Below are positions 25,173 to 39,951 of a stretch of DNA of 64,000 bases, one piece after another. The position numbers were made by a program, and so were the translations under genes. Every line of letters starts with the position of its first letter. The stretch's first letter is position 1. Origin of the DNA: Chloroflexota bacterium (GTDB taxonomy: Bacteria > Chloroflexota > UBA6077 > SHYK01); assembly GCA_035652535.1 (NCBI GenBank), contig DASRDP010000036.1, forward strand, positions 1 to 64,000. Direction: 5' to 3'. The notes beneath the pieces are model-generated. The model searched no databases. It worked only from the letters and a program-made list of their open reading frames with translations, and was not told where the DNA came from.

Positions 25173-26693
25173 TCACGCCGACCCGACAGGTCCGGTGACG
25201 CCGGCGATCATGCGCAGCCGGCCCACATCTAGGGTACCACTCAGCGTGTCGGCCAGGCGGTCATACGCGTCGACCTCTGGTGGGGTTTCCGGCGGATCGA
25301 ACCCCTTCCGTCCGCTAAACCAGTCGACAAGAGCCGCAACGACGGACGGATTGTGAAACAGCCCATGGAGGTACGTTCCCACCACGAGCCCGTCTGGGGA
25401 CACTGCGCCGTCGAACCGCGCTCCGTCAGCCGTCACGATGCGCGCAAACGGCGCGCAAGACCCTGCTGTTCGCCCCATGTGGATCTCATAGGCCGCGATC
25501 TCGCGGCGATGCGCCGCGAGCGGGCCACGGTCCGCCACGAGGCTGCCACGGACCTGGCGTGTCTCTTTCTCCCGCGCATAACGGGAATCGACGGGTAGCA
25601 GGCCGAGCCCGTCCTCCCCGCCCGGGGCGTCCTCAACGCCGTCCGGGTCGTCGATGCGCCGCCCCAGCATCTGGTAGCCACCGCAAATGCCGAGCACGGC
25701 TCCGCCGCGCCGGACGTGAGCGATGACCGCGAGGTCCAGTGACCGCTCTCGCATGAAGGCGAGATCTGCCCTGGTCGTCTTGGTCCCAGGCAGGATCGCC
25801 AGGTCCGGTCTGCCGAAGTCCTCGAGGCGTTCGACGTACCGGACGCGCACCCCTGGCCGGCGCTGGAGCGGCTCCAAGTCGTCGAAGTTGGCGATGCGGG
25901 GGAAGCGGATGACCGCGACGTCCACCGACGCTCCCGGGGCGCCAGGAGCGTCAGGATCGGACCCCGATCGGGGCAGCCCGAGCGAATCCTCCTGCGCGAT
26001 CGCCAGATCGGGGATCCACGGGACCACGCCCAGCACCGGGCGGCGCAGCCGCTCCTGGAGGTAGGTGATGCCGCCGGCGAACAGCGCCGGGTCGCCACGG
26101 AACTTGTTGACGACAAACCCCGCGATCAGCTCACGCAGCTCGGGCTCGAGCAGCTCCATGGTGCCGACGAGCGCCGCGAAGACGCCTCCCCGCTCGATGT
26201 CGGCGACGAGCAACACCGGTGCCCCGACCGCCCGGGCAACGCGCATGTTGACGATGTCCGATTCCAGGAGGTTCATCTCGACGGGACTGCCCGCTCCCTC
26301 GATTACCACGAGGTCGAAGGTCTCCACCAGTTGGTTCAGGCTCGCCTCGACCACCGGCCAGAGTTCTGGAACGCGTCGGTGGTATTCGGCGGCGTCCATG
26401 CTGGTGAGCACACGGCCCTTCACGACCACCTGCGACCGCGAATTTCCCTCGGGCTTGAGAAGAATAGGATTCATCTCCACGGCGGGGGCAACGCGCGCGG
26501 CCTCGGCCTGGGCAGCTTGCGCCCGGCCGATCTCGCCGCCGTCGGGTGTGACAAATGAATTGAGAGCCATGTTCTGCGCTTTGAACGGCGCGACCCGCAG
26601 GCCCTCGCGCTGGAACCAACGGCACAGCCCTGCCACGAGCACGCTCTTCCCCACGTGCGAGGCCGTGCCCTGGACCATGATCGCGCGTCCCAT
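25173..26693 (-). CDS. cobQ: Cobyric acid synthase CobQ
   Basis: A 506-residue amidotransferase that amidates side chains of adenosylcobyrinic acid a,c-diamide in cobalamin synthesis. The N-terminal BioD-like domain has P-loop GTASHVGKS (about residues 9-17) and PFKAQNMALNSFV. The C-terminal class I glutamine amidotransferase domain has nucleophile Cys in GICGGYQMLG and the His in GTYLHGLFHN. The ATG at 26693 overlaps by one base the stop of the upstream cobD-like gene. Longer in-frame starts run into that gene and are rejected. Confidence 0.95.
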   Translation of the reverse strand: MGRAIMVQGTASHVGKSVLVAGLCRWFQREGLRVAPFKAQNMALNSFVTPDGGEIGRAQAAQAEAARVAPAVEMNPILLKPEGNSRSQVVVKGRVLTSMDAAEYHRRVPELWPVVEASLNQLVETFDLVVIEGAGSPVEMNLLESDIVNMRVARAVGAPVLLVADIERGGVFAALVGTMELLEPELRELIAGFVVNKFRGDPALFAGGITYLQERLRRPVLGVVPWIPDLAIAQEDSLGLPRSGSDPDAPGAPGASVDVAVIRFPRIANFDDLEPLQRRPGVRVRYVERLEDFGRPDLAILPGTKTTRADLAFMRERSLDLAVIAHVRRGGAVLGICGGYQMLGRRIDDPDGVEDAPGGEDGLGLLPVDSRYAREKETRQVRGSLVADRGPLAAHRREIAAYEIHMGRTAGSCAPFARIVTADGARFDGAVSPDGLVVGTYLHGLFHNPSVVAALVDWFSGRKGFDPPETPPEVDAYDRLADTLSGTLDVGRLRMIAGVTGPVGSA

Positions 26694-27931
26694 CAGGCCT
26701 GTCCGGAGCGAAGGTGAATGGGGTCCCCGGTACGGGCGAGCGCATCCGGCAGCGCGGCCAGCAATCGCTCCTGGTCGGGGATCGAACGAACGCCGATGCG
26801 AACGTGCGCTGGCAATCCGAAGGACGCGCAATCGCGCACCGCCAGCCCGCGCTCCAGCAGGCGCTCGGCAACAAGGCGTCCGTTCCCCACCTCGACGAGG
26901 ACGAAGTTCGCGACGGAGGGTCTCGGCGCGAGGCCACGGCGGCGCAGGCCATCGACGAGGTGGTCACGCGAGGCAGCCACCGCGGCCCGCGCGCGCCGCA
27001 GGTGCGCGACGTCGGCGACGGCGTGGCATCCAGCCGCCTGGGCGACGCTGCTAACACTCCATGGCGGAACGACGCGCCGGACTATCTCGACTACCTCTGG
27101 CGCGGCGAGGAGCGCGCCCACGCGAATTCCCGCCAGCGCCGCGTCCTTGGTCATCGACCGCAGAACGGCGAGGCGGCCTGACTCGATCCCCGTGAGCGCC
27201 GATGGCAGGCCATCGGTCAGCAAGAGGTACGCTTCGTCGACGACGATCAGCGCCTCTGGCGCCGCGCGCATCACCTCGCCCAGTCGGCGCACGGGCAGCG
27301 CTTCCCCCGTTGGGTTGTTGGGATGACAGAGCCAGATCATGCGCGCGTCGGACTCGTGGGCGCATCGCGCGAGACCGGCCGCGAACTCCGCCGGGTCCCG
27401 CGCCTCGCCCCTCCCGTCCGGCCAGAGCAGCGGGGCGATCTGGACGCTCGCGCCGGTTGCCGCGGATGCCACCGCGTACTCCCCATAGGTCGGGCCGCAG
27501 ACGAGCGCGGTGCGGCCTGGGCCCAGATACGCGCGGGCAACGGCCCAGATCAGCTCAGTCGAGCCGTTTCCGGCCACGACGCAGTCCGCGGGAATCCCTT
27601 CGCGCGTGGCGATCGCCGCGCGCAAATCGTGCGCAGTCGGGTCCGGATAGCGGGTCACGTCGACGCCCGCGATTGCATCCGCCGTTCCAGGTGGCGGCCC
27701 GATGACGTTGCCGTTGGCGCTGAAGTCCAGCACGCCGTCCGGGCGGTCCCGGGGCGAATGGTACGCGCCGTGCGTGGCCGGCGTCAGCGACGCGAGCCAC
27801 GGCACTGGTTCGGGCCGCGCCGCGCTTCCCTCGACCGCCGTACCGCTCGGACCAAGCGCAGCGCGGCCGGGGCTCGCCGCCGGCGCCGCCTGATGCAGCG
27901 CAGTCGCTGGGTCGCCGCGATCAAACGTCAC
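26693..27931 (-). CDS. cobD: CobD/HisC-like aminotransferase-fold decarboxylase
   Basis: A 412-residue PLP enzyme, most likely L-threonine-O-3-phosphate decarboxylase supplying the aminopropanol arm of cobalamin, or a histidinol-phosphate aminotransferase homologue. HGAYHS and VLDFSANGNVIGPPP (after a disordered N-terminal 60 residues) match CobD. The PLP-binding site is in LRSMTKDAALAGIRVG, and HPNNPTGEALP is also conserved. The GTG at 27931 overlaps the cbiB stop (GTGA). Context with cbiB and cobQ favours CobD over HisC. Confidence 0.88.
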   Translation of the reverse strand: MTFDRGDPATALHQAAPAASPGRAALGPSGTAVEGSAARPEPVPWLASLTPATHGAYHSPRDRPDGVLDFSANGNVIGPPPGTADAIAGVDVTRYPDPTAHDLRAAIATREGIPADCVVAGNGSTELIWAVARAYLGPGRTALVCGPTYGEYAVASAATGASVQIAPLLWPDGRGEARDPAEFAAGLARCAHESDARMIWLCHPNNPTGEALPVRRLGEVMRAAPEALIVVDEAYLLLTDGLPSALTGIESGRLAVLRSMTKDAALAGIRVGALLAAPEVVEIVRRVVPPWSVSSVAQAAGCHAVADVAHLRRARAAVAASRDHLVDGLRRRGLAPRPSVANFVLVEVGNGRLVAERLLERGLAVRDCASFGLPAHVRIGVRSIPDQERLLAALPDALARTGDPIHLRSGQA

Positions 27932-28857
27932 GTGCGCGCCCCCATTGATCGCGCGAACGCCATCGCGACGACGGCGGACAGAATGGCGACCAGGCGCGCC
28001 AAGCGGACCGCGCGACGGACGTCCGCTGGTTCGCACGCGCGGTATTCCGCTCCCAGTCGATAGTGCCCGCACTTCGCAAGTCGTCGCTGAAGGGCGCCGG
28101 CCATCGCAGCCATCGGCCAGCCCGCGTTGGGGCTCTCCGTTCGTCCGCTCTCCGACCGGGCTCGGGCAATTGCACCACGCCAGTCGGCACCCGCAATCGC
28201 CGCCACCGCGATCATGCCCGCCGTCATGCGCGCAGGCAGGTAGTTGGCCAGGTCATCCAATCTCGCAGCGGCCTTCCCCAGAAATTCGTACTCGCCATGG
28301 TAGCCGACCATGGCGTCCCATGTGTTGACCGCCCGATACACGATGGCGCCCGGTACGCCGGCCAGGAGAAACGCGTAGATCGGCGCGACCAGCGAGTCGC
28401 AGAGATTCTCCGCCACCGATTCGATGGCGGCTGAGCAGGCGCCTGCCGCCGAGAGACGGCTAGTATCCCGGCTCACCAGCGCCCGGAGCGACTCCCGCGC
28501 CGCATCCAGGCGCCCGCCCTCGACGTGGTCGGCCACCACGAGCGCCTCGCGCTCGAGCTGCCGGTACGACAGACACACCTTGAGGATCGCCCCGCCCGCC
28601 AGCACAGCCGCGACCCGGGATCGAGCTTCGATAGCCCGGAGCCCGAAGGCGGCCGCAAGACCCGCCGCCAGCGCGCTCCCCATAACTGCCGCGGCGCCAT
28701 ACACGAGGCGCGCGATGGCTCCGGAGCGCGGGGCTCGACCGGCCAGCGCGCCGACCCCGCGACCAAAGAGCGCCACCGGGTGCCATCGGGTTCTCGGGTC
28801 CCCGATCGTCAGCTCCAGAAGAGCGGCGACCAGCAGAATTCGCGCACGGTCATTCAT
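27928..28857 (-). CDS. cbiB: Adenosylcobinamide-phosphate synthase CbiB
   Basis: A 309-residue membrane protein that joins aminopropanol (phosphate) to cobyric acid. N-terminal LLELTIGDPRTRWHPVALFGRGV is the family signature. AIESVAENLCDSLVAPI and YRAVNTWDAMVGYHGEYEFLGKAAARLDDLANYLPAR follow (about residues 140-215), with several hydrophobic helices. It is the first gene of the minus-strand cobalamin unit. Its upstream side is the 28-bp repeat array, and no cobalamin riboswitch is visible there. Confidence 0.95.
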   Translation of the reverse strand: MNDRARILLVAALLELTIGDPRTRWHPVALFGRGVGALAGRAPRSGAIARLVYGAAAVMGSALAAGLAAAFGLRAIEARSRVAAVLAGGAILKVCLSYRQLEREALVVADHVEGGRLDAARESLRALVSRDTSRLSAAGACSAAIESVAENLCDSLVAPIYAFLLAGVPGAIVYRAVNTWDAMVGYHGEYEFLGKAAARLDDLANYLPARMTAGMIAVAAIAGADWRGAIARARSESGRTESPNAGWPMAAMAGALQRRLAKCGHYRLGAEYRACEPADVRRAVRLARLVAILSAVVAMAFARSMGART

Positions 28858-28870
28858 GGTTCAAATTCCG

Positions 28871-29172
28871 CCGCCGCCCTGAAGGGCGGGCCCACAAACC
28901 GCCGCCCTGAAGGGCGGGCCCACAAACCGCCGCCCTGAAGGGCGGGCCCACAAACCGCCGCCCCGAAGGGCGGGCCCACAAACCGCCGCCCCGAAGGGCG
29001 GGCCCACAAACCGCCGCCCTGAAGGGCGGGCCCACAAACCGCCGCCCTGAAGGGCGGGCCCACAAACCGCCGCCCCGAAGGGCGGGCCCACAAACCGCCG
29101 CCCTGAAGGGCGGGCCCAGAAACCGCCGCCCTGAAGGGCGGGCCCAGAAACCGCCGCCCTGAAGGGCGGGCC
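28871..29172. repeat. REP-type tandem array, 28-bp unit, 10 full copies plus a partial
   Basis: Ten contiguous 28-base units (28871-29150) and a 22-base partial (29151-29172). Each contains the hairpin CCGCCC-TGAA-GGGCGG followed by GCCCACAAA. Units 4, 5 and 8 have CGAA as the loop; units 9 and 10 have CAGAAA in place of CACAAA. No unique spacers separate the units, so this is not a CRISPR array. The same hairpin, inverted, makes up the array at 29695-29942 on the other side of the transposase gene. Confidence 0.9.
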
Positions 29173-29198
29173 GACGGCCGTGAACGCGCGACCAAGCT

Positions 29199-29226
29199 AG
29201 CCGGCTCGCTTGTTCGCGAGCCGGCT
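29199..29226. terminator. 11-bp perfect hairpin after the RAYT gene
   Basis: AGCCGGCTCGC (29199-29209), loop TTGTTC, GCGAGCCGGCT (29216-29226). It starts 11 bases after the transposase stop codon on the minus strand. It could be a terminator or a subterminal transposon-end hairpin. There is no U-tract. Confidence 0.5.
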
Positions 29227-29237
29227 CGAGTGGCGCC

Positions 29238-29699
29238 CTAGGCATGCCCGAGGTCTCGCCCGCGAGTCTCTGCCACGTAGGGAGCCAATCCGATTCGGCC
29301 GAGCCACGCATACTGTTGCTCTGGCAGGCCGAACTTACCGGGGTTTGCGCAGACGTACCGGCAGGCGCTATCCACTGCCGCGTCTGTCGTGAGTTGAGCC
29401 GCCTGGTACTCATCGGCCCACAGATGCTCGCTCCGCAAGTCGAGCTTGAGATCCTGGCACGCCAAGAACACCCGTCGCGACGACACTCCTTTCAGGTTAT
29501 TGAGGACCTTTGATCTTTCGTGTCCACTCGTTCCTGCGTTCAACACGATGTGGACATGATCTGGCATCACTGCCAGCGCCAATGCGCAATAACCATTGCG
29601 CTCTGTCACCTCGCGAATCGCTTCCGCGCAGACGAGAAGCAAATCCGGATCGGCGAACACCGGTCGCCTTCGATACGTTGAGAAGGTGATCAACCACAT
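29238..29699 (-). CDS. REP-associated tyrosine transposase (RAYT, Y1 HUH family)
   Basis: A 153-residue single-strand DNA transposase/nuclease of the IS200/IS605-related TnpA_REP family. The HUH motif is MPDHVHIVL (His48 and His50). The likely nucleophile Tyr115 is in RYVCANPGKFGL, the RAYT signature usually written YxxxNPxKxGL. LNNLKGVSSRRVF and HLWADEYQA are also typical. The ATG at 29699 lies inside the first 62-bp repeat unit, with AGGGA seven bases before it; longer frames into the array are artefacts. No tnpB or accessory gene is present. The gene is flanked by inverted REP arrays that it may cleave or mobilise. Confidence 0.88.
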   Translation of the reverse strand: MWLITFSTYRRRPVFADPDLLLVCAEAIREVTERNGYCALALAVMPDHVHIVLNAGTSGHERSKVLNNLKGVSSRRVFLACQDLKLDLRSEHLWADEYQAAQLTTDAAVDSACRYVCANPGKFGLPEQQYAWLGRIGLAPYVAETRGRDLGHA

Positions 29700-29942
29700 T
29701 TCGCCATCCCTGGCCCGCCCTTCAGGGCGGCTTCCTCCTCCCGCCGCGGCGTCACCCACATTTCGCCATCCCTGGCCCGCCCTTCAGGGCGGCTCCCCGC
29801 TCCCGCCGCGGCGTTACCCACATTTCGCCATCCCTGGCCCGCCCTTCAGGGCGGCTCCCTCCTCCCGCCGCGCCGTCACCCACATTTCGCCATCCCTGGC
29901 CCGCCCTGAAGGGCGGCTTCCTCCTCCCGCCCGCGCGTTGAC
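29695..29942. repeat. REP-type tandem array, 62-bp unit, 4 copies
   Basis: Copies at 29695-29756, 29757-29818, 29819-29880 and 29881-29942. On the plus strand each reads CACATTTCGCCATCCCTGGC, then the hairpin CCGCCC-TTCA-GGGCGG, then a C-rich tail. The loop TTCA is the complement of TGAA in the 28-bp array, so the hairpins face the opposite way. Copy 4 instead has TGAA. Each unit carries an SD-like AGGGA and an ATG on the minus strand; copy 1 provides the start of the transposase. Confidence 0.9.
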
Positions 29943-29966
29943 GCCAATTTTGCGCATTCGTATAGT
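29938..29966 (+). promoter_or_regulatory. Promoter at the array edge for the racemase-like gene
   Basis: TTGACG (29938-29943), a 17-base spacer and TATAGT (29961-29966). The -35 straddles the end of the last 62-bp repeat. The predicted start near 29973 gives a 20-base leader with GGAGGAGG. Confidence 0.6.
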
Positions 29967-29992: not shown

Positions 29993-30802
29993 ATGCGAAT
30001 TATGGTCCTGAACCAGACGCCGGAAGACCCAACAAATGGCGAATACGCGGAGCGCGTCATCCCGATCCTCCGCAGCTACGCGTCGCCCGGAACCGAAGTG
30101 GACCTCTGTTTCCCCGACGACTACCCGGGCGCCGCGCTCTCGCAGGTCATGAACAGCCAGGGAATCCGATCCGAGCTGGACTACCACGTCTCGACCCCGG
30201 CCCTGATCAAGAAGATCGTTTGGGCCCAGCAGAACGGCTACGACGCCGTCGTGCAGAGCAACAATTTCGACCCTGGCGTCGAGGCCGCGCGGTTCGCCGT
30301 TCGCATCCCGGTCATCGGGATCTGCCGCACCAGCGTGCATGTGGCGGCGAGCCTCGCCGATCGGATCGGCATCACCGTTCCGTTCGATCACTACGCGCTC
30401 CTCACGCGGCGGCTCCTGCAGAGCTACGGCCTCCTCCACCACGTGATCGACATCCGCTCCATGGCGCTGGGCGGCGTGCCGCGCGGCGAACAGGTGGCCG
30501 TTCAGAGGCCCATCATTTTCGAGCGAGCGGTGGAGCAGATGCGAGCCCTGGCGCGCGAGACGGGCGCGGAGTGCATCGTGCCCCTCGGGGGCGCCGTCAT
30601 CCCTTACATCGTGTCGCCCGTCGATCTGGAGCGGGAGGTGGGCGTGCCGGTGCTGAACCCGAAGGCGATCGGCATCTACGTCGCCGAGATGTGCGTGCGC
30701 GGCGGTATGTCGCAGAGCCCGATCGCATATCCGGCTCCTCGGCTCGTGGCGGAGGACTTCGAGGCCTTCGCACATGCGCCAGCCGGGGCAGGGCGCGCAT
30801 GA
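29993..30802 (+). CDS. Asp/Glu/hydantoin racemase superfamily protein lacking both catalytic Cys
   Basis: A 269-residue cytosolic protein with the overall pattern of hydantoin/aspartate racemases: MRIMVLNQTPED at the N-terminus, DAVVQSNNFDPGVEAARF, then PVIGICRTSVHVAASLADRIGI. Where the family has its two catalytic cysteines (CFGDPG and LGCAG) this protein has NNFDPG (about residue 88) and LGGAV (about residue 201). The usual two-base racemisation is therefore unlikely. A decarboxylase, isomerase or binding role is possible. GGAGGAGG precedes the ATG. The next gene overlaps by four bases (ATGA), so the two act together. Confidence 0.8.
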   Translation: MRIMVLNQTPEDPTNGEYAERVIPILRSYASPGTEVDLCFPDDYPGAALSQVMNSQGIRSELDYHVSTPALIKKIVWAQQNGYDAVVQSNNFDPGVEAARFAVRIPVIGICRTSVHVAASLADRIGITVPFDHYALLTRRLLQSYGLLHHVIDIRSMALGGVPRGEQVAVQRPIIFERAVEQMRALARETGAECIVPLGGAVIPYIVSPVDLEREVGVPVLNPKAIGIYVAEMCVRGGMSQSPIAYPAPRLVAEDFEAFAHAPAGAGRA

Positions 30803-38031: not shown

Positions 38032-38079
38032 CTCTCTGGCGCCACGTCTCTCTGGCGCCACGTCTCTCTGGCGCCGCGT
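38032..38079. repeat. 16-bp tandem repeat, 3 copies
   Basis: CTCTCTGGCGCCACGT at 38032-38047 and 38048-38063, with a third copy (one change) at 38064-38079. It starts 17 bases after the Rieske stop and precedes the histidine-kinase promoter region. Confidence 0.8.
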
Positions 38080-39828: not shown

Positions 39829-39893
39829 GTCATGCCGAGCGCAGCGAAGCATCTCTGGACATCCAGATCCTTCGGGCCCGCCCTCAGGATGAC
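39829..39893. repeat. Miniature inverted-repeat-like intergenic element, 65 bp
   Basis: GTCATGCCGAG (39829-39839) and CTCAGGATGAC (39883-39893) are imperfect terminal inverted repeats (9 of 11). The right end is duplicated just downstream (CCTCAGGATGACAGCGGGG again at about 39908). The rest of the 353-base gap 39708-40060 holds low-complexity repeat (CTTCGGCTTCGCTCAGGAC) and a weak promoter. No gene is seen there. Confidence 0.5.
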
Positions 39894-39951
39894 AGCGGGG
39901 CGCGGCCCTCAGGATGACAGCGGGGCGCCGCCCGGACAGCTCAGGAAAATG

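Follow-up and report, generated by a model that had tools for sequence, protein, structure and literature searches.

A probable REPtron-like locus in a Chloroflexota genome, with one Y1 transposase gene between two tandem arrays of a shared hairpin

A transposase gene between two facing arrays

We describe a locus that is probably REPtron-like, with one resident, non-multiplying Y1 HUH transposase, its cognate single-strand hairpin inverted on both sides of the gene, and two arrays that represent two of several local tandem amplifications of that hairpin. Several of the features by which RAYTs and REPtrons are recognized occur here together: a PF01797 HUH-Y1 protein with an intact HUH motif and tyrosine, inverted flanking REPs, a single-copy gene, and dispersed intergenic palindromes that are partly arranged as doublets. 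The locus lies in a 64,000-nucleotide stretch of a Chloroflexota draft genome (G000), hereafter the window.

The transposase gene occupies 29238-29759 on the minus strand. Tandem Repeats Finder bears out the original prediction that it sits between a 28-bp array of 10.8 copies and a 62-bp array of about four. The first, on the minus strand and 3' of the gene, spans 28871-29172 (period 28, 98% matches; 11 units), and the second, on the plus strand, was detected at 29690-29931 (period 62, 3.9 copies, 93% matches), its four units reaching 29937. In the direction of the gene, the 28-bp unit reads TTT-GTGG-GCCCGCCCTTCAGGGCGGC-GG. The 62-bp unit is built as TCACCCACATTTCGCCATCCCTG-GCCCGCCCTTCAGGGCGGC-TCCCTCCTCCCGCCGCGGCG, and in the direction of the gene its units present a purine run (GGGAGGAGG or near it), then the hairpin, then ATGGCGAAATG. 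A 16-bp core, CCGCCCTGAAGGGCGG, allowing up to two mismatches, matches 27 times in the window versus 0.24 times expected from shuffling, in a count that scores this near-palindrome on both strands. The two arrays are oppositely oriented and face each other, the loop on the plus strand being TGAA in the 28-bp array and TTCA in three of the four 62-bp units. The prediction of one core in opposite orientations within otherwise unrelated units therefore stands, except that the block common to both unit types is exactly 20 bp (GCCGCCCTGAAGGGCGGGCC) rather than 16, and that the fourth 62-bp unit carries its loop the other way round (29901-29916, plus strand; CTGAAG versus CTTCAG elsewhere), the centre of its palindrome looking flipped relative to the three neighbouring units. 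Both sides of the gene are flanked, as had been proposed, but the 62-bp array also extends into the gene at its 5' end, where the first unit covers the likely start codon and the first codons.

Point differences are scattered among the units of each array in irregular order, which argues against an assembly artefact in which repeats were collapsed or expanded. The draft state of the assembly (168 contigs) leaves some room for such an error, but several contigs of this genome, as well as a second genome, carry arrays in which the same core has other flanks, and we regard an artefact as highly improbable. The exact copy number of the arrays could still be wrong.

The region upstream of cbiB/cobD (adenosylcobinamide-phosphate synthase; 27928-28857, minus strand; TIGR00380, 228.5 bits against a cut-off of 165.9; PF03186) consists of the 28-bp array, which stops 13 bp short of the cbiB ATG. 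Directly behind this array, cobalamin genes (cobQ-like, aminotransferase, cbiB) fill 25173-28857 on the minus strand, and no Rfam riboswitch was found in the window. On the other side, the divergent neighbour is an Asp/Glu/hydantoin racemase-family gene (29993-30802, plus strand; PF01177, 71.5 bits), and a promoter scan placed a promoter-like TTGACG-17-TATAGT at 29938-29966 on the plus strand, starting at the end of the 62-bp array and upstream of this gene. The order of purine run, hairpin and ATG in the 62-bp units raised the idea of leader-hairpin control of transposase translation. This remains a guess: the hairpin does form in RNA folding, yet many shuffled sequences fold at least as well as the 58-nt leader (z -1.0).

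The hairpin and its distribution

The element reads GCC[C]GCCN-TTCA-NGGCGGC on the strand that carries TTCA. Pairing with a bulged C is possible, and DNA folding favours the plain six-pair stem CCGCCN/NGGCGG. In a set of 107 elements taken from three genomes, the individual stem pairs are conserved at 88-94%, a figure that the search pattern itself biases toward kept pairs. The loop-closing pair, which the pattern leaves free, is C-G in 65 elements and G-C in 27; counting outward from the loop, the third and fourth pairs are likewise reversed in a few elements. Hairpin pairing is thus kept with compensatory change.

Canonical REPs start with GTAG or GTGG (PMC2817692, PMC6006769). At the corresponding position of the stem, the 28-bp array has GTGG in 8 of 11 units, CTGG in two and GTCG in one; the 62-bp array has CCTG, with GTRG lost; and the dispersed copies of this genome share no foot consensus beyond the final G. 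Among related genomes, several copies in G002, of the same family, have GTAG, and copies in G008, of the same order, mostly end in AG. A GT[AG]G foot is accordingly not a family consensus across the 28-bp units, the 62-bp units and the dispersed G000 copies. The REP foot is essential in E. coli, while other groups tolerate changes in it (PMC8266576). The element works like a REP of a REPtron, yet it is outside the canonical GTAG REP family.

The exact pattern CCGCCNTGAANGGCGGGC occurs 29 times in this genome, and its reversed control not once. Outside the locus, the hairpin is found as single copies, as inverted doublets of two loop subtypes, and as tandem arrays whose flanks are specific to each site. 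The arrays lie on C86 (38 bp, three units), C22 (67 bp, three units) and C113 (66 bp, two units), with a 65/79-bp composite array on C4 and a further array with other flanks on C104. Since these are all away from the gene, amplification is not peculiar to its two sides. Inverted doublets make up 12 of 30 close pairs. The hairpin was not covered by the top-ranked coding frame at any of twelve sampled sites, and the elements were intergenic at the five sampled sites with identified neighbouring genes.

Hairpins that are GC-rich, intergenic at the checked sites and capable of stable folding might be transcription terminators or other regulatory RNA hairpins that act independently of the transposase. 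We give this explanation very little credence: no terminator-like T run was found at the 28-bp or 62-bp arrays and no Rfam family in the window, the hairpins form inverted doublets at preferred spacings as well as whole tandem arrays, and bases are conserved beyond the simple stem on one side only.

A search of the genome and its relatives for the core, which had been proposed as a check, showed that the element is not randomly distributed. The exact pattern has 13 copies in G002 and 100 in G008, with none for the reversed control in either; any exact copy is present in 15 of 301 genomes of the phylum and, besides the three genomes already named, none has more than four. Close pairs are inverted doublets in 5 of 5 cases in G002 and in 33 of 50 in G008 ('-+' pairs, spacings mainly 29 and 39, from 40 sampled stretches), and G008 also has arrays that combine the same core with other flanks. 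In that genome, too, L281 (G008:C489, 491-675 and 658-796) holds a perfect 92-bp duplication adjoining a REP array of three 47-bp units.

Each of the three genomes rich in the core has a RAYT match above cut-off, compared with 5 among the 29 genomes of the class (simple counting gives about 0.003, uncorrected for kinship). We do not rely on this co-occurrence because the hairpins flanking the above-cut-off Y1 genes of G002 and G008 are of another, GTAG-footed kind, which leaves the CTTCAG element without a visible cognate gene in these two genomes (83% and 74% complete, respectively). The genes concerned, L171 (G008:C59) and L172 (G002:C293), are canonical RAYT genes, and their GTAG-footed hairpins (GTAGGGGGCGACGGCTCTGTCGCCCC and GTAGGGCGGGGGCTTGTCCCCCGCC) constitute a second REP type in those genomes. 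In G009 and G001, with four and two core copies, no RAYT was found.

A protein with an IS200-like core and RAYT-like features

The transposase comprises 173 amino acids when read from the GTG at 29759, or 153 from an alternative in-frame ATG at 29699. Its true start is uncertain because this ATG and the codons preceding it fall in the first 62-bp unit. The protein matches Pfam PF01797 (Y1_Tnp, 62.7 bits) and NCBIfam NF047646 (REP_Tyr_transpos, REP-associated tyrosine transposase; 83.3 bits, cut-off 80), with a match to NF033573 (IS200) below its cut-off (50.5 versus 55 bits), and its gene is the sole Y1 gene found in the genome (4.45 Mb). An alignment of 23 sequences shows H68 and H70 of the HUH motif and Y135 to be invariant. 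In the same alignment, the segment between its HUH and tyrosine motifs is of the longer IS200 type (LKGVSSRRVFLACQDLKLDLRSEHLW), a segment that is shortened in RAYTs, and the protein has a RAYT-like tyrosine motif (YVCANP) and tail. An AlphaFold model (pLDDT 81.7) has its best PDB fold matches in ISDra2 TnpA, the REP transposase 4er8 ranking lower, and in the tree the protein occupies a long end branch (1.68) that falls between the RAYTs and the IS200 clade and close to the base of that clade, without firm support (87/84). We read the protein as an intermediate with an IS200-like core and a RAYT-like tyrosine motif rather than as a clear RAYT. The identity first assigned to it is upheld in part, by the NF047646 match and the RAYT/REP-type locus, and weakened by the IS200-like core and the long branch. 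Class 3 TnpA-Y1 (PMC6006769) was considered as a home for the protein and rejected, given YVCANP rather than Y----Q and feet of GTGG and CCTG rather than CnGA.

Like the IS200/IS605 TnpA proteins ISDra2 and IS608, which are its best fold matches, the transposase has a long segment between the two motifs; unlike them, it has YVCANP rather than a Y..xQ-type motif (e.g. YIENQ), is present in one copy rather than many, and resides in a genome without TnpB. These likenesses, and the TTCA-loop hairpins that lie near IS200 genes in G038, would fit a decaying IS200-type insertion sequence that retains its end hairpins, as opposed to a domesticated REP system. We consider such decay unlikely, since the gene is single-copy, the dispersed item is the hairpin, often in inverted doublets, and not the gene, and the tyrosine motif and tail are RAYT-like. 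No TnpB was found in this genome or in six relatives, compared with 15 matches in G038, which makes it unlikely that the hairpins are remnants of IS605 elements that carried TnpB. The G038 genes in question (L039, L045 and L047) encode IS200 TnpA, and the hairpins near them suggest that the TTCA loop is also present at IS200/IS605 ends.

Within the class, the nearest relative of the protein is L036 of G006 (39% identity by BLAST, 32% in the full alignment). Its gene is flanked on both sides by a stem-shifted hairpin, TAGCCCGGCC(N)TTCA(N)GGCCG (TAGCCCGGCCNTTCANGGCCG), which has 31 copies in G006 versus 0-4 in nine other genomes, and none for the reversed control in G006. This is the strongest of the comparisons among relatives. 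As judged from this single pair, protein and hairpin appear to shift together; a joint shift of protein and REP is known for other RAYTs (PMC2817692). A bolder reading, which we find possible but doubtful, is that the transposase and its G006 relative represent a lineage intermediate between IS200/IS605 TnpA and RAYTs that was domesticated, and formed its REPs, separately from the known RAYT groups, and whose TTCA-loop REPs track the protein by a stem shift and are now actively amplifying in tandem around the gene.

Relation to known systems and origin of the arrays

The locus resembles described REPtrons, that is, RAYT (TnpA-REP) genes with flanking REPs (PMC2817692, PMC6006769), in its single-copy PF01797 HUH gene, its inverted flanking palindromes, its dispersed cognate palindromes in inverted doublets, and its bulge-capable stem. 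It differs from them in the IS200-like core of the protein, in a GTRG foot confined to part of one array, and in flanking REPs that form two different tandem arrays, one of which overlaps the start of the gene. Tandem REPIN clusters in Pseudomonas fluorescens SBW25 (PMC3116915) are likewise ordered repeats that include flanking sequence beside a RAYT gene, but their unit is a doublet (the REPIN), whereas in the present locus every unit contains a single REP and the gene lies between two unit types. A REP of Thioalkalivibrio, GTAGGTCGGCCTTCAGGCCGAC (PMC2817692, Table 1), shares the TTCA loop, a GC-rich stem and a foot at its base; it differs in keeping GTAG, in its stem, and in its gammaproteobacterial host. 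Since publications already describe inverted REPs around RAYT genes (PMC2817692), tandem REPIN clusters that include flanking DNA next to such genes (PMC3116915) and, in Chloroflexi, GTAG repeats (PMC3733652), the arrangement is a variant of what is known rather than something new in kind, and the original prediction that the locus looks new was overstated. As far as the literature was searched, we found no report of this protein type with this hairpin, of two different single-REP arrays bracketing one gene, or of such an array overlapping a gene start.

If it acts like E. coli TnpA-REP and the IS200/IS605 enzymes, the protein would bind the strand folded into a TTCA loop on a GCC[C]GCCN stem with a bulged C, and its tyrosine would cleave beside this hairpin. 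TnpA of IS200/IS605 is known to recognize a T in the loop and an unpaired base of the stem (PMC8266576). REPs or REP doublets could then be relocated to new sites while the strand is single-stranded. Each array has probably copied its own stretch of adjacent DNA along with the hairpin. The builder of the arrays may be either the transposase or ordinary slippage or recombination at the hairpin.

The second of these options, in which the transposase spread the hairpins and the arrays arose independently of it by replication slippage or unequal recombination, competes with the last step of the proposed mechanism only, and we judge it just slightly less probable than its converse. Arrays with unrelated flanks at several loci distant from the gene favour it, as do the scattered point differences among units, which stepwise duplication predicts, and the window also contains arrays that lack the REP core. 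Against it, the transposase gene is the site both of the longest of the arrays found, with 11 units, and of a second one, a hint of a link and no proof, and published REPIN arrays likewise cluster at RAYT genes (PMC3116915).

Several observations count against the REPtron-like reading as a whole, which we nevertheless prefer: the GTRG foot is lacking in the 62-bp array and in the dispersed G000 copies, the protein is on a long branch of the tree, the G006 evidence is one relative, CTTCAG elements in G002 and G008 are without a partner, and the core is present in G009 and G001 without a RAYT. The origin of REPs from transposon ends and the way in which REPs multiply are unsettled questions. In this respect, the genome provides several tandem arrays in which one core is joined to different captured flanks, two of these arrays lying at the transposase gene, and a relative adds a shifted version of the core with dispersed copies of its own. 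This allows a direct in vitro test both of protein-hairpin matching, using the transposase's own core and that of G006, and of the enzyme as array builder.

Other repeats were seen in the window. A hairpin-rich array at 1758-1969 (92-bp unit, 2.3 copies) contains the palindromes CCCTCTCCCCC/GGGGGAGAGGG and CCTTCCCCC/GGGGGAAGG, and pyrimidine-rich strings like those of this array lie beside some dispersed REPs (L069, L077). Shorter tandem arrays are located at 38032-38079 (16 bp, three copies; CTCTCTGGCGCCACGT) and 39874-39933 (25 bp, 2.4 copies; GGGCGCCGCCCTCAGGATGACAGCG).
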